From contig JAJEEE010000052.1 of NCBI GenBank assembly GCA_022821145.1, positions 1-64,000 of the forward strand: a DNA stretch of 64,000 nt. The letters are read 5' to 3'. Both the position numbers and the translations under genes were made by a program. Source of the stretch: Acidobacteriota bacterium. GTDB lineage: Bacteria > Acidobacteriota > Terriglobia > 20CM-2-55-15. Of the stretch, positions 522-11,974 are shown one piece after another (the stretch's first letter is position 1; the number at the start of each line of letters is the position of its first letter). The notes beneath the pieces are model-generated. The model had not been told where the DNA came from. It saw only the letters and a program-made list of their open reading frames with translations, and made no database searches.

Positions 522-2036
522 ATGACACTGAAACTCCCCCTTCGGCCGCGTCCCCGGACCGCGCGGACCGCCGGCCGGCAACGCGCCGGCATCAAGGTCA
601 AGATGATCCTCCCGGCGCTGACCGAGGCGACGAGCCCCTTCTTCCGGCCCATCAAGTACTCGCTCTTCCCTCCGCTGGGCCTGGCGACGCTGGCCGGCTA
701 CCTGCGCGACGACGACGAGGTCGCCCTCCAGGACGAGCACGTGGAGCGTCTCGATACGGACGACGAGCCCGACCTGGTCGTGATCCAGGTGTACATCACC
801 TCCGCCCGACGGTCCTATGAGCTGGCCGACCACTACCGCCGCAAGGGCGCATGGGTCGCGCTCGGCGGCCTGCACGTGACCTCGCTCCCGGAGGAAGCCG
901 CGCGCCATGCGGACAGCGTCTTCATCGGGCCGGGCGAGGACACTTGGCCCGTGTTTCTCGACGACTTTCGGGCGGGACGCCCCAAACCGCTCTACCGCTC
1001 CACGGTGCGCACCCTGGCCGGTCTTCCACGCATCCGGCGCGACCTGATCCAGCGTTCGCTCTATCTCGTGCCGAACTCGATCGTCGTTTCCCGCGGCTGC
1101 CCGCACGTGTGCGATTTCTGCTACAAGGAGGCCTTCTTCCAGGGCGGCCGCGGTTTCTACACCCAGGTGGTCGAGGACGCGCTGGCCGAGATCGACCGGC
1201 TGCCCGGCCGCCACCTGTACTTTCTCGACGACCACCTGTTCGGAAACGTTCGCTTCGCCTCGGAGCTGTTCGACGCGATGCGGGGCATGGGGCGGCTGTG
1301 GCAAGCCGCCGGCACCGTCGGGTCGGTCCTGCGTCCCGGACTGCTCGAGGCGGCGGTCACGGCCGGCCTGCGCAGCCTGTTCGTCGGCTTCGAGACGCTG
1401 GACCCGCGGAGCCTGAAGGCCCAGCGCAAGTTCCAGAACCTGCGCCGCGACTACGGCGAGGCGGTGCGGCGCCTGCACGACGCGGGCGTGATGGTCAACG
1501 GCAGCTTCGTGTTCGGCATGGACGAGGACGACCCCTCGGTCTTCGAGCGGACCGTCGAGTGGGCCATCGGGCAGGGAATCGAGACCGCGACGTTCCACAT
1601 CATCACGCCCTACCCCGGCACTCGGCTGTTTGACCGCATGGAGGCCGAGGGCCGGCTGCTGCACCGCGACTGGGACCTCTACGACACCCGCCACGTCGTC
1701 TTCCGCACGCGCGGCATGAGCGGGGAGGCGTTGGAGTCCGGCTACCGGCGGGCCTACCGCGACTTCTACCGGTGGGGCTCGATCCTGCGCGGAGCGTCGA
1801 CGAAGAACGATCCGGTGGCCGCCTTGCGCCACGTTGCCTACGCCGCCGGGTGGAAGAAGTTCGAGCCGCTCTGGGACCGGGTCATCCGCACGCGGCAAGT
1901 CTTGCGAATGCGTCCCGCCCTGGAACAGATCCTGCGCGGCTTCGGGCGGCAACCGGAACAGCCTGCAGAACCAACGCCAGAGCCGCAACGCGCACGACGG
2001 TCGATGCCTCATGCGCACGGAGGAGTGTCACGATGA
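522..2036 (+). CDS. B12-binding-domain radical SAM protein
   Basis: 504-residue cytoplasmic radical SAM enzyme. Residues about 28-150 have the layout of an N-terminal cobalamin-binding domain ([13 protein letters not shown] near the start, later [14 protein letters not shown]). The radical SAM core follows with the [4Fe-4S] motif CPHVCDFC (Cys193, Cys197, Cys200; CX3CX2C), then FVGFETLDP and HIITPYPGT, typical of this class. The substrate cannot be read from sequence; relatives methylate or rearrange unactivated carbons, including in hopanoid and other isoprenoid pathways. ATG 522 is chosen because the in-frame extension back to 441 is low-complexity Arg/Ser. The stop overlaps the next start as ATGA, and a cis-prenyltransferase lies two genes on, so a polyprenyl substrate is plausible but inferred. 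Confidence 0.85.
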
Positions 2037-2362
2037 AACGATCGCTCAGTTCTCTCGAAGACCGCCTGGCGCCCGCCGAGGCGATCTTCTTCACCTGGCT
2101 CCTGCGGGTATTCGCCGCCGCGACGCTCGTCGGGTCGGCATGGATCGACGACGCGCCGCCCCTGGAGTTGGGGGCCATGATCATAGCGATCTATGTCGCC
2201 GTCCGGGTGGCCGCCCAGTTCGGCCGCCTGGCCGCCGCCGCGCCTTTCGAGCACCGGCCGTTGCGGGTGATGTTCGCCGCCGGCGCCCTCATTCTGCTCG
2301 GTTTGTCGTTCCTCGTCGTCGCCATCCTCGTCGAGCGCCTGTCCCTCTCGGCGGTCGGCTGA
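2033..2362 (+). CDS. small three-helix membrane protein
   Basis: 109 residues starting at ATG 2033, preceded by GGAGGA about 10 bases upstream and overlapping the radical SAM stop by four bases. Three hydrophobic segments are visible: [38 protein letters not shown] and [20 protein letters not shown]. No family is recognised. Its position between a radical SAM enzyme and a cis-prenyltransferase, with tight coupling on the upstream side, suggests a membrane partner for the same pathway. Confidence 0.75.
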
Positions 2363-2373
2363 GGCGGAACGGG

Positions 2374-3126
2374 ATGGACCGAACGCCGACGGGCCTGCAC
2401 GTGGGCCTGATCATGGACGGCAACGGCCGGTGGGCCGCGGCGCGCGGGCTCCCGCGCACGGAAGGTCACCGCCGGGGCGCCGGCGCCGTGCGGCGCGCCG
2501 TGGAAGCGGCGCCCGGGCTCGGCATAACGACACTGACTCTCTACGCCTTCTCCCGGGACAACTGGCGTCGGCCGGCGGACGAGGTGGCGACGCTGATGGG
2601 GTTGATGGAGTCCTTCCTGGTCCGCGAACGCGCGAACTGCCGCCGGCAGGGCGTCCGGCTCGCGGTGATCGGCCGCCGCGACCGCCTGCCGCCGGGGCTG
2701 ATTCGCGCGATCGAGGAGACGGAGCGCGCCACACGCGACGGCGCGCGGCTCTACCTGAGGTTGGCCGTGGACTACTCGGCGCGCTCGGCGATCCTCGCCG
2801 CGGCCGGTGCGCTGGGCTCGGCCGAACGCTGCGACGAGACAGGCTTCCTGCGGCGGGTCAATCGCGCGTGCCACTCCGATCCGGAAACGCCGCCGGTGGA
2901 CCTCGTGATCCGGACGAGCGGCGAGCAGCGCCTGAGCGACTTCCTGCTGTTCGAGTCGGCCTACGCGGAGCTTGTGTTCATCGACACGCATTGGCCGGAC
3001 TTCGACGGCGAGGATCTGTGCCGGGCCATAGAAGCGTTTCGCCGCCGCGACCGCCGATTCGGAGCGGCGCCGGCGGAGGAGGGCGTCGGGGTGCCGCACC
3101 GTGCCGGAATCGCTTTCATGGACTGA
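2374..3126 (+). CDS. uppS: cis-prenyltransferase (undecaprenyl diphosphate synthase family)
   Basis: 250 residues, the usual length. The family signature MDGNGRWA is at residues 14-21 (Asp15 binds Mg-diphosphate), followed by [20 protein letters not shown] and near the C-terminus [21 protein letters not shown], the conserved IPP-binding and dimer region. It condenses isopentenyl diphosphate units onto an allylic primer to give a Z-polyprenyl diphosphate. The canonical 'NYGGR' loop reads VDYSARSAI here, so this may be a pathway-specific paralogue rather than the housekeeping cell-wall enzyme. It starts 11 bases after the small membrane protein in the same operon. Confidence 0.9.
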
Positions 3127-3451: not shown

Positions 3452-3973
3452 TCAGTCCGTCGACGGTGCGGGCGATTCACGGTCTTCGCCGTTTCCGCTG
3501 GCGCTCCCGCGAGTCCGATAGACCACATACATGGCCGTGAGAACTCCGCTGCCGATCAGCGCCAGGGCGATTTTGACAGCCACCGGATTCGACGACAGCC
3601 CCGTATTCTCGATCAGCCAGTGCATGCTAAGGCCCCCGAAAACGGAGAAGACACTGTACTGGCGAAAAGTGGGCCCGGTTCGCTGCACGTCGTGCAGCTG
3701 ACGACCCGTTGCCTGCGCTTCGCGAGCCGCGGCATACGCGTGGTAGGCCATCATCCCCACGAACGCGAAAAGCGAAGGGAGCGCGATCCGGCCGCGATCG
3801 CTCACGTACTCGACGATGCCCTCCGGCTCGAAGATCAGCGCGACGACAAAGAAACCCAGAAACACGGCGGCAACTCCGATAACGTACCTCCAGATCGCGT
3901 AGACGACCGTTTCGGCCGGAGTCATCTTCTCGACCCGCTCCATCAGGACGTTTCTCGCCCGGTCCCACATCAT
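3452..3973 (-). CDS. membrane protein, module 'B' copy 2
   Basis: 173 residues with about four hydrophobic helices (WRYVIGVAAVFLGFFVVAL, IALPSLFAFVGMMAYHAYA, YSVFSVFGGLSMHWLI, IALALIGSGVLTAMYVVY) and an acidic tail. It is a paralogue of the gene at 5096-5620: both start MMWDRAR, continue M-T-x-x-E-T-V-V-Y, share A-R-E-x-Q-A-T-G in the loop after helix 2, and end in an ALIG helix. It follows module 'A' copy 2 in the same operon, repeating the order seen upstream. The family is unknown to me. Confidence 0.7.
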   Translation of the reverse strand: MMWDRARNVLMERVEKMTPAETVVYAIWRYVIGVAAVFLGFFVVALIFEPEGIVEYVSDRGRIALPSLFAFVGMMAYHAYAAAREAQATGRQLHDVQRTGPTFRQYSVFSVFGGLSMHWLIENTGLSSNPVAVKIALALIGSGVLTAMYVVYRTRGSASGNGEDRESPAPSTD

Positions 3974-4044
3974 CGATCTCCGTGAATCTGACCGGCGCCC
4001 GTGTCCACTCCGCGGTTACCGTCCACTCGAAGACATGGGAGGCC

Positions 4045-4551
4045 TCAATGGCCGGACGCACGCGAGGAACGCTGCCGTTCCCGGAAGTGTTCTTCGATCC
4101 GCGTCCAATTCAAGTCCGAAACGAGCGCCTCCACAGCCGTCGGGACGCCGATGAACACGATTCCGGCCGTAACGACAAGGGTCAAGAACCACGAGGCATC
4201 GTATGCGCCCCAAAAGGCGGCGACATAGAGAATCCAGACAAGCACGCCGCGCCGGAACCCCATGAGGCCGCCCTCCCTGCGTGTCGGCCGCCTCTGATGA
4301 AGCCGCCAGAACATCCGCCGCGACGTGGCCGTCGTGGACACGACGATGCCGACAACAGCGAAGAGAACGATTCCAGTCCGTTCCTGTGACGCAGGCGCCC
4401 CCTCGTCCCAGCCCAGGATGAAGACTGGGAGGCGAACGAAGACGCCGTAGATGCCAACGCACATCAGGACGAAGACGATGGCGTGGACCACCTGGCCGCC
4501 GCGGGTCTGGACGTCGCCCGTCATGAACTGTTTGAATCGGTCCCGCATCAT
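4045..4551 (-). CDS. membrane protein, module 'A' copy 2
   Basis: 168 residues. It begins MMRDRFKQFMTGDVQT and has four hydrophobic stretches. It is a paralogue of the gene at 5617-6195: shared features are R-F-x-x-F-M-x-G-D-V, F/I-L-G-W-D-E after helix 1-2, S-R-x-x-F-W-x-L followed by RRPTRxE and MGFR, and Y-D-x-S-W. A DUF-like membrane family is likely, but I cannot name it. Together with the downstream 'B' gene it forms the second copy of a two-gene module. Confidence 0.7.
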   Translation of the reverse strand: MMRDRFKQFMTGDVQTRGGQVVHAIVFVLMCVGIYGVFVRLPVFILGWDEGAPASQERTGIVLFAVVGIVVSTTATSRRMFWRLHQRRPTRREGGLMGFRRGVLVWILYVAAFWGAYDASWFLTLVVTAGIVFIGVPTAVEALVSDLNWTRIEEHFRERQRSSRASGH

Positions 4552-4805
4552 CTATCCCGGACGGTGCGATCGGTTCCCGGGCCAATCGCCCTCAACGACC
4601 TTGCCGATGACGGCTTTCACGACCGGCCGTCTCCGCTCCGCTTGGACGCCTCAAGATCGGGTTTCCGGCTGCATCCGGTATACCGCCATCGCCTCCGGTG
4701 CTGTTCCGCGGAGCGTCGTGTGGACCACGAGCATGCCTGACGCAGCGGACCCGATCGCGAACGATTCACCCCCGACACGAGCCCGAGTGCCGGAATCGCG
4801 CCCGG

Positions 4806-5036
4806 TCACTTGCGCCGCCGTGTCCAGAGGTGCCAGATCCGACAGTCGCCGACCAGCATGTCGCCGAAGGCCACGCCAGCGCCCACGGCCAACGACAGGA
4901 GCAACTTGGTTGCGAACGGCATTGCGTAGGGTTGCAGCTCCGGCCAAAACGATGGTTGCAGCCAGTGGAGTCCGCCGGTGCCCAAGGTCCCGAAAACGAA
5001 GACCCACACCGTTCGCTTCCGGATTCGAGCACTCAT
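4806..5036 (-). CDS. small membrane protein between the two A-B modules
   Basis: 76 residues: a basic N-terminus (MSARIRKRT), one helix (VWVFVFGTLGTGGLHWL), a second (KLLLSLAVGAGVAFGDML), and a basic tail. It lies between the first and second copies of the duplicated module and is probably co-transcribed with them. The 254 bases between it and module 'A' copy 2 show no gene I would defend. No family recognised. Confidence 0.5.
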   Translation of the reverse strand: MSARIRKRTVWVFVFGTLGTGGLHWLQPSFWPELQPYAMPFATKLLLSLAVGAGVAFGDMLVGDCRIWHLWTRRRK

Positions 5037-5095
5037 CGCGACTCCTCAAAGACGAACGGGGCTCGGACAACCGCCGGTACACGGGTCGCCGCACG

Positions 5096-5620
5096 TCACG
5101 CTGCACCCGGTGTGTCCGGCTCGTGGTCTTCTTGTTCTCTCCTGGGATTGCAGCGCCTCCATAGAACGGCGTATACGGCCGTGCAAGCCATGCCGCCGAT
5201 CAGCGCCAAACCGAACTGCGCGCCGATCGTGTCCGCCGACAGTCTCGTCCGGTCGATCACCACGTTCAGCAAGAGCATTGCGCCGGCAAAGGCCACGGTG
5301 CAGCAGATCGCGCCCCGAACGACTTCGGGCGTCGTGTCGGGGCGTTTTCCGGTCGCCTGTTCTTCGCGGGCGCGCGCGTATGAATCGTAGGCGTATTTTC
5401 CGCAGAAAATGGAAACGAACAGGAAAATCCACATGGCATCGTCGTCTGCCCCCCGGGAACCGACACCGCCGCCCTGATCCAAGACTTCCCAGATGACGAA
5501 CACGAACAGTCCGGCCGCGACAGCGACCAGAAAGTTGAAGACTCCGTAGACGACGGTTTCTACCGTGGTCATCTCGCGGATGTCGCTGTGCCCGATAATT
5601 CTTGCCCGGTCCCACATCAT
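5096..5620 (-). CDS. membrane protein, module 'B' copy 1
   Basis: 174 residues from the ATG at 5620, chosen because it matches the start of the paralogue at 3452-3973 (MMWDRAR) and overlaps the upstream stop as ATGA. An open frame continues upstream but only inside the neighbouring gene. The helices and the A-R-E-E-Q-A-T-G loop align with copy 2. The overlap implies translational coupling to module 'A' copy 1, so the two products probably act together in the membrane. Confidence 0.7.
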   Translation of the reverse strand: MMWDRARIIGHSDIREMTTVETVVYGVFNFLVAVAAGLFVFVIWEVLDQGGGVGSRGADDDAMWIFLFVSIFCGKYAYDSYARAREEQATGKRPDTTPEVVRGAICCTVAFAGAMLLLNVVIDRTRLSADTIGAQFGLALIGGMACTAVYAVLWRRCNPRREQEDHEPDTPGAA

Positions 5621-6195
5621 CGATCCCTGTCGATACGATAGGCGCCCGTCTGGGCCGCAGACGTCGATGTCAGCGCGGGCATGTGAGGAACGTCGACGCC
5701 CGATGGCGGCGGATGGATCCCGTTCTCCATGGCCTGTTTCTCGATGCGCCTCCAGGCACGATCGGAGAATCGTGCCTCCATCGTCGTCCAGAAGACGGTG
5801 AACGCGGCCGCGAGGAACACGAGGAATGGCCAAGAGCCGTCGTAGCCGAGTAGCCAGAACACGCCGACGAAACCGAAGACGATGAAACCGGCGCTGCACC
5901 GGAAACCCATCACGGCGCGCTCGGTACGCGTGGGGCGTCTCCGTTCAAGCTGCCAGAAGCGGTGCCGAGACGTTTCCGTGATCGAAACGAAGACACCGAA
6001 CAAGGCCAGATTCACCCACCCCGGTACGTGGAATCCTACCCACACCGGCTCGTCCCAGCCGAAGACGAAGGCGAGGACGAAGGTGATGACGACATGGAAC
6101 GCGGCCCCCATCAGGCCGAAGACGACGGCATGGGCCACGCGTGCGGCGCCGGTTTCCACGTCCCCCTCCATGAACGTGTTGAACCGGTTCGGCAT
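5617..6195 (-). CDS. membrane protein, module 'A' copy 1
   Basis: 192 residues beginning MPNRFNTFMEGDVETG, with about four hydrophobic segments including VVFGLMGAAFHVVITFVLAF and FIVFGFVGVFWLLGY. It is a paralogue of the gene at 4045-4551 and carries about 25 extra C-terminal residues. Its start overlaps the stop of the upstream gene (TAATG) and its stop overlaps the start of module 'B' copy 1 (ATGA), so three genes are translationally linked. Function unknown. Confidence 0.7.
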   Translation of the reverse strand: MPNRFNTFMEGDVETGAARVAHAVVFGLMGAAFHVVITFVLAFVFGWDEPVWVGFHVPGWVNLALFGVFVSITETSRHRFWQLERRRPTRTERAVMGFRCSAGFIVFGFVGVFWLLGYDGSWPFLVFLAAAFTVFWTTMEARFSDRAWRRIEKQAMENGIHPPPSGVDVPHMPALTSTSAAQTGAYRIDRDR

Positions 6196-6500
6196 TATCG
6201 ATCCGGCCGATCCGCGTCCAGCCCGATCACGGTCAAGTCATGCTTTCTCGTCCATGACGCCGGCGGTCTGAAGTGAAAGAGGGCAAAGACGGCAGCCCCG
6301 CCGGTAGCGGAAACGAGAAATCCGGGCCACTCGTCCGCAAGACCGTGCGCGGTCAGGCCGACGGCGTTCGACACAAGGGCCAACGTGAAGAGACCGGCGA
6401 ACAGCCCGGCCATGCGTCCCGCATAGACGAGTGCGCCGTGGAACCACTTCTCGCGACCGTTCATCGTACTGTGGTCGCACTCCTGGATGATGCGAATCAT
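6195..6500 (-). CDS. small membrane protein, first gene of the module operon
   Basis: 101 residues with two hydrophobic segments (MAGLFAGLFTLALVSNAVGL and PGFLVSATGGAAVFALFHF). The start used gives MIRIIQECDHST; an internal Met (MNGREKWFHGALV) is an alternative. It is the first gene of the minus-strand operon that ends at 3452. No family recognised. Confidence 0.6.
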   Translation of the reverse strand: MIRIIQECDHSTMNGREKWFHGALVYAGRMAGLFAGLFTLALVSNAVGLTAHGLADEWPGFLVSATGGAAVFALFHFRPPASWTRKHDLTVIGLDADRPDR

Positions 6501-7062: not shown

Positions 7063-8208
7063 TTACGGCAGCGCCAGTTCCTTCGAGAACGTACGGAAGG
7101 GCAGGACGCGCGTGCCGGACCACACGCGGTCGCCCTCGCCGAGATGGACCTGGTAGTAGTCCGTGATCGGCGTGCGCCGCCGGAAATACGCGATCGCCGG
7201 GTTGGGCGCGCGGTCGCCGGTCTTGCACTCCACGGCGAACCGCGGCCGGCCGTCCCGCAACACGACGAAGTCGACTTCGCGGCGGTCCGTGTCCCGCAGG
7301 AATCGCAGCTCCATCCGGTATCCCTCCGTATCCTCCACGTGGTGGCAGTACTTCAGCAGGTGCGAGGCGACCATGTTCTCGAAGCGTTCTCCCGGACCGG
7401 GCGTCTGGGACCAATCCCACAGGTAGAGCTTCTGCTCCTTCTTGACCGCCCGTATTCGCGGGGCGCCGAACGGGGGAATGCGGAAACAGACGTACAGGTT
7501 CTCGAGTATGCCGAGCCACCGCGCGACCGTTTCGTGGGCCACCTGCAAGTCTTCCGACAGGCTTTTCACTGAGAGCGGCGAGCCGACCCGTTCCGGCAGG
7601 GCGTCGACCAGCAGCTCCACCAGCGCCACTTGGCGTACGTTCTCCAGGTCGCGCAGGTCTTCGTGTACGACTCGCGACAGCCGTTCGCGCTGCCAGCGGC
7701 GCCACGTCCGCGTGTTGCCGGCCAACAGCGGCTCGGGAAAACCGCCGAACCGCAAGAGCGTCTCCACGTCGTCGCGTGACGGCCGGGCGGCGAGCTCGCC
7801 CAGCGAGAACGGGTGCAGGCGGTAGGGGTGGTAACGCCCCTGCAGGGAATCCCCGCCTTTCCGGTAGTGATCCAGCCGGGCCGAACCGGTCACCAGGAAG
7901 GCCGTGCGATCGCCTTCGGTGTCGTAGAACCCCTTGACCAGGTTGCGCCACCGCGGGTACTTGTGGATCTCGTCCAGGACGAGCAGGGGCTCGCCGCCGG
8001 GCAGTTCGCCGCGAAGCAGCGTGCGGCGGGCGTGCGGGTCGTCCCAGTTCAGATACCCGGGATGCCGTGCGCCGCCGCCCAGCAGTTGAAGCGCCAGCGT
8101 GGTCTTGCCGACCTGCCTCGGGCCGCCGAGAAGCACCATCTTGTGTCGAAGGTCATCCCGGATCGGTTCGGTCAGGTATCGGACGCGGGTCCTGAAAGTC
8201 GCGGTCAT
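7063..8208 (-). CDS. AAA_14/DUF4143-type ATPase
   Basis: 381 residues. Walker A is GGPRQVGKTT near residue 29 and Walker B is LLVLDEIHK. The sensor region LVTGSARLDHYRKGGDSL is typical of the AAA_14 family. The second half (about residues 190-381) has a winged-helix region (LSVKSLSEDLQVAHETVARWL) and a DUF4143 end with DFVVLRDGRPRFAVECKTGD, a PD-(D/E)XK-like core. Such proteins are common in bacteria and archaea as mobile or selfish-looking accessory ATPases, and their role is not settled. A second, divergent member lies at 10814-11974. Confidence 0.85.
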   Translation of the reverse strand: MTATFRTRVRYLTEPIRDDLRHKMVLLGGPRQVGKTTLALQLLGGGARHPGYLNWDDPHARRTLLRGELPGGEPLLVLDEIHKYPRWRNLVKGFYDTEGDRTAFLVTGSARLDHYRKGGDSLQGRYHPYRLHPFSLGELAARPSRDDVETLLRFGGFPEPLLAGNTRTWRRWQRERLSRVVHEDLRDLENVRQVALVELLVDALPERVGSPLSVKSLSEDLQVAHETVARWLGILENLYVCFRIPPFGAPRIRAVKKEQKLYLWDWSQTPGPGERFENMVASHLLKYCHHVEDTEGYRMELRFLRDTDRREVDFVVLRDGRPRFAVECKTGDRAPNPAIAYFRRRTPITDYYQVHLGEGDRVWSGTRVLPFRTFSKELALP

Positions 8209-10813: not shown

Positions 10814-11974
10814 TCAACCGCGCAACGGCCGCAATTCGGCCGCGAGCCGTCTCGCCGGCAATGCCCGGACGCGCGGCGCCAACCTGTAGGCGCGTTCACC
10901 CGCATGCACGACGTCGAGTCGCCGAAGGCCCAGCGTCTCGACGGCCGAACGCATGGACGACGTCAAGCGCGGGGCTTCGGTCCGCTTGATCTCGAAGCCG
11001 TAACGCCGATGGCCGTCCACGACGAGAAGATCCAGCGCGCCGCCGGAGTACGTCGACCAGTGGAAGCACTGGTCCGGGCGCGCCCGGAGCCGGTGGATGA
11101 CCTGCCGGATGACGAACCCTTCCCACGATGCGCCCACCAGGGGATGCGACAAGACCGCCTCGCGTGTGCCCAGCCCCAGCAGCGCATGGAGGACGCCCGA
11201 GTCGCCGATGTAGACTTTCGGGGACCGTACCTGCCGTTTGGCGACGTTCTCGTGCCACGGCTGAAGTTGCCGCACCACGAACGCCGACGTCAGGAGATCC
11301 AGATAGCGCCGAACCGTGGTGTGCGCGACGCCGAGCGCCCGGCTGAACTCGGCGTCGTTCCAGATCTGCCCGTGCCAGTGGGCCAGCATGGTCCAGAACC
11401 GGCGTAACGTGATCGGTGGCACGCCGGTTCCGAGGCCCGGGAGATCGCGCTCGAGGAACGTCCGGATGAAGTCGTTGCGCCATCGGCGGCTGGCGGCCTC
11501 CGAACGGGAAAGATAGGCGCGGGGGAAGGCGCCGTGAAGCCAGAGCCGGTCCAGGTCCGGGACTTCGTCCAGGTCGAAGCCGTCGAGCTCGTGGAAAGCA
11601 ATCCGCCCGGCGAGGGTCTCGGAAGTCTGGCGGAGCAGTTCGGGCGACGCGCTGCCGAGGACGAGAAACCGGGCGGGCGTTCGCGGTCGGTCGGCCAGAA
11701 CCCGGAGCAACGGAAAGACGTCGGGCAACCGCTGGATTTCGTCCAGGACCACCAGGCCTCGCAACGGGCGCAACTCGACGCCCGGCTCGGCCAGCCGAGA
11801 GGCGTCGACCGGGTCCTCCAGATCGAACCACGTGGCCGCCGCGCGCCGCGCGGCGACGAGCTGCCGGGCCAGAGTGGACTTGCCGACCTGTCGGGCGCCG
11901 AGGAGGGCGACAACGGGATATTCTCTCAGGAGCAGCGCCAGACGGCGCCGGTGATACGGCCGTTGAATCTCCAT
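10814..11974 (-). CDS. AAA_14/DUF4143-type ATPase (second copy, divergent)
   Basis: 386 residues. Walker A LLGARQVGKSTLARQL near residue 25, Walker B GLVVLDEIQRLPD, then LVLGSASPELLRQ. An HTH-like region (FSRALGVAHTTVRRYLDLL) and a DUF4143 end (GGALDLLVVDGHRRYGFEIK) follow. The ELDGFDLDEVPDLDRLWLHG segment differs clearly from the gene at 7063-8208, so this is a separate subfamily rather than a recent duplicate. It stands alone, with a gap of 113 bases to the cluster on one side and about 95 to the sulfatase on the other. Confidence 0.85.
   Translation of the reverse strand: MEIQRPYHRRRLALLLREYPVVALLGARQVGKSTLARQLVAARRAAATWFDLEDPVDASRLAEPGVELRPLRGLVVLDEIQRLPDVFPLLRVLADRPRTPARFLVLGSASPELLRQTSETLAGRIAFHELDGFDLDEVPDLDRLWLHGAFPRAYLSRSEAASRRWRNDFIRTFLERDLPGLGTGVPPITLRRFWTMLAHWHGQIWNDAEFSRALGVAHTTVRRYLDLLTSAFVVRQLQPWHENVAKRQVRSPKVYIGDSGVLHALLGLGTREAVLSHPLVGASWEGFVIRQVIHRLRARPDQCFHWSTYSGGALDLLVVDGHRRYGFEIKRTEAPRLTSSMRSAVETLGLRRLDVVHAGERAYRLAPRVRALPARRLAAELRPLRG

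Follow-up and report, generated by a model that had tools for sequence, protein, structure and literature searches.

We describe a three-gene operon of an Acidobacteriota bacterium in which a gene for a radical SAM enzyme with a B12-binding domain ("rSAM") lies together with a small membrane protein gene and a second cis-prenyltransferase (CPT) gene. The association between rSAM and CPT genes is wider than this trio and well supported, and it is very likely that the two enzymes serve one pathway. The presence of a second CPT in one operon with an rSAM gene, together with the recurrence of the pair in distant relatives, suggests a so far unknown polyprenyl lipid that carries a chemical modification. 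We give an even chance to the reading that the operon encodes, under its own regulation, the synthesis of a dedicated polyprenyl lipid and its later modification by the rSAM enzyme. A first-pass annotation of the same DNA had proposed such a lipid, made and then modified; the second CPT and the recurrent pair speak for it, and the action of the rSAM enzyme on the prenyl product is a step that we infer.

Acidobacteriota abound in soils and are noted for unusual lipids. To our knowledge, undecaprenyl phosphate is usually regarded as the sole polyprenyl carrier of a bacterial cell. If the proposed pathway is real, the cell would have, under separate regulation, another carrier or membrane lipid whose chain is modified. 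The rSAM–CPT pair is small enough for direct expression tests, and the operator provides a handle on the time of use. Among the matches listed in our literature search, which took in titles and abstract openings, few subscription papers and no bioRxiv preprints, there was no published account of the pairing.

The window, by which we mean the whole stretch of 64,000 nucleotides analyzed, begins at base 1 of contig C48 in a 4.18-Mb assembly that is 99% complete (G000). Three genes on its plus strand (522–3126) are real and form one operon. The first (522–2036) encodes the 504-aa protein P0001, with Pfam Radical_SAM and B12-binding domains; the second (2033–2362) encodes P0002, a 109-aa protein with three hydrophobic segments and no family above cut-off; and the third (2374–3126) encodes the 250-aa CPT P0003 (PF01255), of a clade that we call DYS. 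Upstream on the same strand are the C-terminal portion (2–388) of a winged-helix regulator of the PhoB/CadC type, which has hydrophobic segments and whose front is lost at the contig start, and a putative operator of four direct repeats (TCAG/TCAC/TCAC/TCAT; 406–442) with an exact 11-bp period. The operon and the ATGA overlap noted by the first-pass annotation are both present; the overlap is restricted to genes 1 and 2 (2033–2036), and the gap from gene 2 to gene 3 is 11 bases. Our gene caller was home-made, and its start codons are rough. Among the loci compared (as distinct from whole genomes), P0002 homologues occur only in G001 and L063, and a PHROGs scan of P0002 and a PADLOC scan returned nothing useful.

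P0003 is a member of the cis-prenyltransferase family, scoring 236.7–236.8 bits against PF01255 (cut-off 27) and 214.8 against TIGR00055 (cut-off 109.55). Its likeness to UppS extends over the whole domain. In E. coli UppS numbering, D26, R30, W31, R39, H43, N74, W75, R77, E81, R194, R200, S202 and E213, which we take to be the catalytic residues of UppS, are identical in P0003. A69 and L137, presumably the chain-tunnel residues of UppS, are kept as well, which suggests that the product chain is probably medium to long. P0003 differs from UppS in the substitutions N144D, G146S and N203D, in the arginine at position 140, and in being a second copy. Among NCBIfam models, the best for P0003 by bit score is the prenyltransferase NF011412 (PRK14839), but at 319.3 against a cut-off of 334 it falls short of this equivalog. 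The Methylobacterium protein of this clade reaches 388.6 bits and so exceeds the cut-off.

The VDYSARSAI segment of P0003 (2767–2793, plus strand), where E. coli UppS has NYGGRWDI, had been singled out earlier as a non-canonical loop, and it proves to be diagnostic of a clade and not an oddity of a single protein. D144 is present in 45 of 45 members of DYS and its sister group DYG versus 1 of 44 other CPTs in the same alignment; R140 occurs in all 45 DYS and DYG rows, and S146 and D203 in 39 of 39 DYS rows. In a tree of 89 CPTs, the 39 DYS sequences fall on one side of a branch with SH-aLRT 98, adjoined by the six DYG sequences, and the branch retains SH-aLRT 95 after removal of both motif regions and of L302. 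The tree was built on 89 of 151 sequences, omitting 62, with 26 household rows drawn at random and L302 left out of the second tree; the 151 are what remained after 5 of 156 distinct sequences shorter than 200 aa were removed. Judged by sequence, P0003 belongs to a distinct CPT clade, marked by D144, S146, D203 and R140, that retains the catalytic residues. The CPT of L234, considered as another member of the second-CPT clade, was rejected, as the tree places it in the household clade. Among named records, relatives of P0003 at more than 80% identity are one Vicinamibacteria and one Bryobacterales metagenome-assembled genome, both Acidobacteriota.

P0003 is an additional CPT. G000 carries two PF01255 genes, P0003 and one at C3:46089 (283 bits), the latter beside what we take from their sequences to be dxr- and rseP-like genes, a usual household place. 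The dedicated-lipid proposal had been made contingent on P0003 not being the only uppS in the genome, and the ordinary household copy is indeed there. Unlike household uppS, with its presumed dxr/rseP neighborhood, P0003 lies elsewhere, and its clade is mostly found in a cassette with a membrane protein and a regulator. The membrane protein of this cassette, M4, has multiple helices, and the regulator is of the HTH_34 winged-helix kind (90.3 bits); both stand near the CPT in 31/36 DYS and 6/6 DYG loci (37/42 together) versus 0/74 household loci. These counts required a match within 3.5 kb of the CPT on the same strand and omitted loci with less than 1.8 kb upstream (3/39 DYS, 32/106 household); L289 was scored as lacking the cassette because its M4–HTH_34 pair lies about 5 kb upstream, beyond the limit. 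Records that carry the cassette come from Acidobacteriota, Gemmatimonadota and, among the Alphaproteobacteria, Methylobacterium, Bradyrhizobium and Aureimonas. Loci with M4, HTH_34 and a second CPT, mostly without rSAM, are L147–L151, L153–L169, L065–L068, L078, L240, L246, L252, L254, L290–L294 and L297.

M4 matches no Pfam family above cut-off. Its structural model (pLDDT 91.9) has seven predicted helices, and a fold search against the PDB gave no clear match; the best, a succinate-acetate permease, had an E-value of only 0.62, so the fold assigns no function. In the available flanks of the window, G001, L063 and L064 (for L063 only about 1.3 kb upstream), M4 and HTH_34 genes were not found. 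In their place this group has the PhoB/CadC-type regulator together with the 109-aa protein, which L064 alone lacks. An rSAM gene of the P0001 family lies near the CPT in 8 of 42 DYS/DYG loci and is absent at 34. In Methylobacterium sp. E-045, a BchE-type gene (L067:7974–10264; 519.8 bits, cut-off 481.35) follows the second CPT with overlapping reading frames; as it belongs to another rSAM subfamily, we did not count it as support for the pairing.

The rSAM–CPT pair recurs across the phylum. Closer relatives of P0001 (E ≤ 1e-80) are present in 39 of 396 sampled genomes, and in eight of these 39 a CPT gene lies beside the rSAM gene (G000, G097, G172, G181, G254, G235, G406 and G317), covering 5 of 24 families (f1, f34, f36, f42 and f18). 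The pair also stands in L064 and G001 (L143), both beyond this sample. Allowing generously for chance adjacency at 0.0033 per gene, we obtain a binomial p of about 1e-12 when genomes are counted and 2e-8 when families are; since the genomes are related and not independent, these values are too optimistic, the family count being less affected. The order of the genes varies: rSAM precedes the CPT in G000, G001, L064, G235, G406 and G317, and the CPT comes first in G097, G181, G172 and G254. The spacing is generally tight: in L240 (G181) and L254 (G097) the CPT stop codon overlaps the rSAM start codon as ATGA, in L064/L256 a single base follows the rSAM stop before the CPT begins, and the gap is 9 bases in L252 (G254) and 126 in L246 (G172). 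Three of the eight come with qualifications, in that the rSAM of G254 is a fragment, the CPT of G406 is truncated at a contig end, and in G317 a DUF4352 gene lies between the rSAM and its linked CPT, which belongs to the household clade. On the rSAM tree, the label "no adjacent CPT" requires six changes, five of them forced by starred branches, in a tree where some branches are long and details unsure.

Copy number follows the same association. At least two CPT matches occur in 20/39 genomes with the rSAM versus 26/357 without it (Fisher p 4.5e-11, kinship ignored; a split gene would score as two matches). The other 19 of the 39 rSAM genomes have one CPT only, so a second CPT is not a general requirement of the rSAM enzyme. 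Lack of conservation of the trio had been named beforehand, beside a single uppS, as an observation that would refute the proposal, and neither objection stands, in that the rSAM–CPT pair recurs; the exact trio, with the 109-aa protein included, was seen only in two genomes of one genus. Relatives of the trio include L064, without the membrane gene, and L063, without the rSAM; in the genome of L063 no close P0001 relative was found (best E 6e-18). The narrow range of the exact trio is what one would expect if an ordinary second uppS had simply come to lie beside an unrelated radical SAM gene. The recurrence counts given above (eight genomes, five families), the overlapping genes and the common operators make such chance adjacency extremely improbable.

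Outside the phylum, P0001 relatives are sparse. In Pseudomonadota, the phylum of the Methylobacterium record, they were found at E 1e-60 in 7 of 398 genomes, at 33–36% identity, and in none of the other 391; no P0001 relative was found in viral contigs.

The operon also shares its control region with relatives. The regulator, truncated in the window, has a full-length homologue in G001 (L143:6912–8288, 458 aa) with Trans_reg_C at 63.8 bits (cut-off 26.2) and four hydrophobic segments, and our home-made "Cad" profile gives a 217-bit match directly upstream of the window rSAM. Winged helices of the PhoB/OmpR type bind direct repeats of about 11-bp spacing. The exact repeat triple occurs once in the window, at 417–441 (expected 0.04), and three times in the whole G000 genome versus 0 for the reversed pattern. 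Of the other two genomic triples, one lies over what are presumably the end of ruvA and the start of ruvB, and the other (L305:1501–1525) upstream of a presumed aquaporin-like gene, possibly another target of the regulator.

G001, L063 and L064 share the array with the window, and L228, L232 and L237 have a less exact form of it. It lies upstream of the rSAM gene in the window, G001, G376 (10/12 letters) and G317, and upstream of a YjbQ–rSAM pair in L228, L229, L230, L237 and L256; L227, L229 and L230 match in 10/12 letters. Of 36 rSAM loci scanned upstream of the rSAM or of its accompanying YjbQ gene, 9 score at least 10/12 and the remaining 27 score 6–9; those of the latter compared with random stretches, a test made on rSAM-upstream sites, were at background. 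The array would thus control one branch of the rSAM family. In this branch, a YjbQ (UPF0047) gene often stands between regulator and rSAM. YjbQ is upstream of rSAM in L228, L229, L230, L232, L233, L237 and L256, and behind a PhoB/CadC-type regulator in L228, L232, L237 and L256. L148, a DYS locus without rSAM, has an exact array match more than 6 kb from the CPT. In G317, one exact array precedes the rSAM gene and a second precedes the separate DUF4352–CPT unit.

An operator common to both units would also be expected of a stress operon in which the extra CPT replenishes undecaprenyl phosphate under envelope stress and the rSAM enzyme works on some other membrane lipid or a quinone, the two sharing nothing but a regulator. 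The DYS/DYG CPTs that occur elsewhere with a membrane protein and winged-helix regulator (31/36 and 6/6), mostly without rSAM, fit this explanation, as does the lack of a second CPT in 19/39 rSAM genomes. However, CPT and rSAM genes overlap or nearly overlap in both orders, and do so in the M4–HTH_34 as well as the PhoB/CadC-type setting. Such arrangements in unlike regulatory settings are more than co-regulation needs, and we regard an operon joined by regulation alone as quite unlikely.

Returning to the enzyme that would modify the lipid, P0001 has Radical_SAM at 45.4 bits (cut-off 29.5) and B12-binding at 42 bits (cut-off 32.1), and its CX3CX2C cluster motif lies at residues 193–200, with C193, C197 and C200 invariant in 27 aligned members. 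With both domains above cut-off and the cluster motif in place, P0001 is by its domain content a B12-domain radical SAM protein, and a putative user of cobalamin. An AlphaFold2 model (pLDDT 84.9, pTM 0.84) has AprD4 as its best match in a fold search (6fd2, Z 30.1, rmsd 2.8, 388 residues), the Rossmann part and the radical SAM barrel both aligning. CysS, MgmA, TsrM and OxsB (Z 23–25) come next, followed by MiaB and RimO (Z 22–23). CysS, MgmA and TsrM are methylating enzymes, and OxsB carries out a ring contraction. As MiaB- and RimO-type enzymes score nearly as high as the cobalamin enzymes (for cobalamin radical SAM enzymes, see the excerpt of PMC8992657), the fold is no proof of cobalamin use.

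No NCBIfam model matched by P0001 comes near its cut-off. Its top score is for HpnJ (TIGR03471; 70.4 bits, cut-off 577.6), with the C-3 methylase HpnR at 63.5 (TIGR04367; 650) and BchE at 61.8 (TIGR02026; 481.35), all through the radical SAM part of the protein; a model for the hopanoid C-2 methylase HpnP did not appear among the matches. In these families we take the domain order to be B12-binding followed by radical SAM, as in P0001. The comparison with hopanoid enzymes made in the first-pass annotation does not hold up for this genome, given these HpnJ and HpnR scores and the lack of a squalene-hopene cyclase match in G000. Radical SAM enzymes do modify hopanoids: according to an excerpt of PMC5462960, on hopanoids in Acidobacteria, hpnP and hpnR methylate them, and hpnJ is one of three genes needed for the cyclitol ether. 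A cyclase match is present in six of 11 genomes examined (all but G061 with rSAM). On the other hand, none was found in G000, G001, G097, G406 and G235, and in G062 and G317 (2 of the 11) an HpnJ above cut-off exists separately from the P0001 relative. We rejected this route for G000, where the missing cyclase match, in an assembly so nearly complete, makes hopanoids unlikely; hopanoid tailoring by P0001 is very improbable.

A different substrate is suggested by AprD4, which was solved with paromamine and is the best PDB match of P0001 by sequence as well as by fold (phmmer E 2.5e-12, profile E 5e-19, Z 30.1 over 388 residues). AprD4 is a radical SAM enzyme that dehydrates a sugar diol (excerpt of PMC5461906). 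That the nearest solved structure acts on a sugar diol counts against modification of a prenyl chain; the second CPT might instead supply a dedicated carrier, with the rSAM enzyme acting, in the manner of AprD4 or HpnJ (the latter being the top NCBIfam score), on a carrier-borne head group such as a sugar and sparing the chain. Yet identity to AprD4 is just 22%, and the equivalog cut-offs of HpnJ and AprD4 (NF033070; 48.3 bits, 500 needed) are far off. Nor did we recognize in the cassette, going by gene content and with no dedicated search, a glycosyltransferase, sugar enzyme, AprD3-like reductase, kinase or phosphatase. Action on a head group is in our view unlikely, though worth keeping in mind.

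For the pathway that we favor, the following steps are proposed. The membrane-anchored PhoB/CadC-type regulator would bind the 11-bp repeats and turn the operon on. P0003 would then extend an allylic starter with IPP, yielding a cis-polyprenyl diphosphate, as its family and residues indicate, the product and its length being our extrapolation. P0002 may tether the pathway to the membrane. P0001 would modify the polyprenyl lipid, most likely by methylating carbon of its hydrocarbon chain in a radical reaction or by a similar C–C step. Whether the polyprenyl lipid itself is the rSAM substrate we consider evenly balanced; C-methylation specifically is a doubtful choice among the possible reactions. 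The fuller proposal, of a hitherto undescribed cis-polyprenyl carrier or membrane lipid with its own clade-specific synthase and regulator, distinct from undecaprenyl phosphate and with unactivated carbons methylated or joined by the B12 rSAM enzyme, is tentative, falling clearly short of an even chance. L063 counts against the pathway, since it retains the array upstream of the membrane protein–CPT pair, with no rSAM gene between the regulator and the membrane gene; so do the 34 of 42 DYS/DYG loci without this rSAM, the 19 rSAM genomes with a single CPT, and the household-clade CPT linked to the rSAM in G317.

The surroundings of the operon offer some further observations. On the minus strand at 3452–6500 of the window lies a series of small membrane-like proteins without a Pfam match (four tested), among which the 168-aa and 192-aa proteins co-cluster with a protein downstream of the G001 trio. 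Farther along the same strand, two AAA_14/DUF4143 ATPases lie near each other, at 7063–8208 and 10814–11974.
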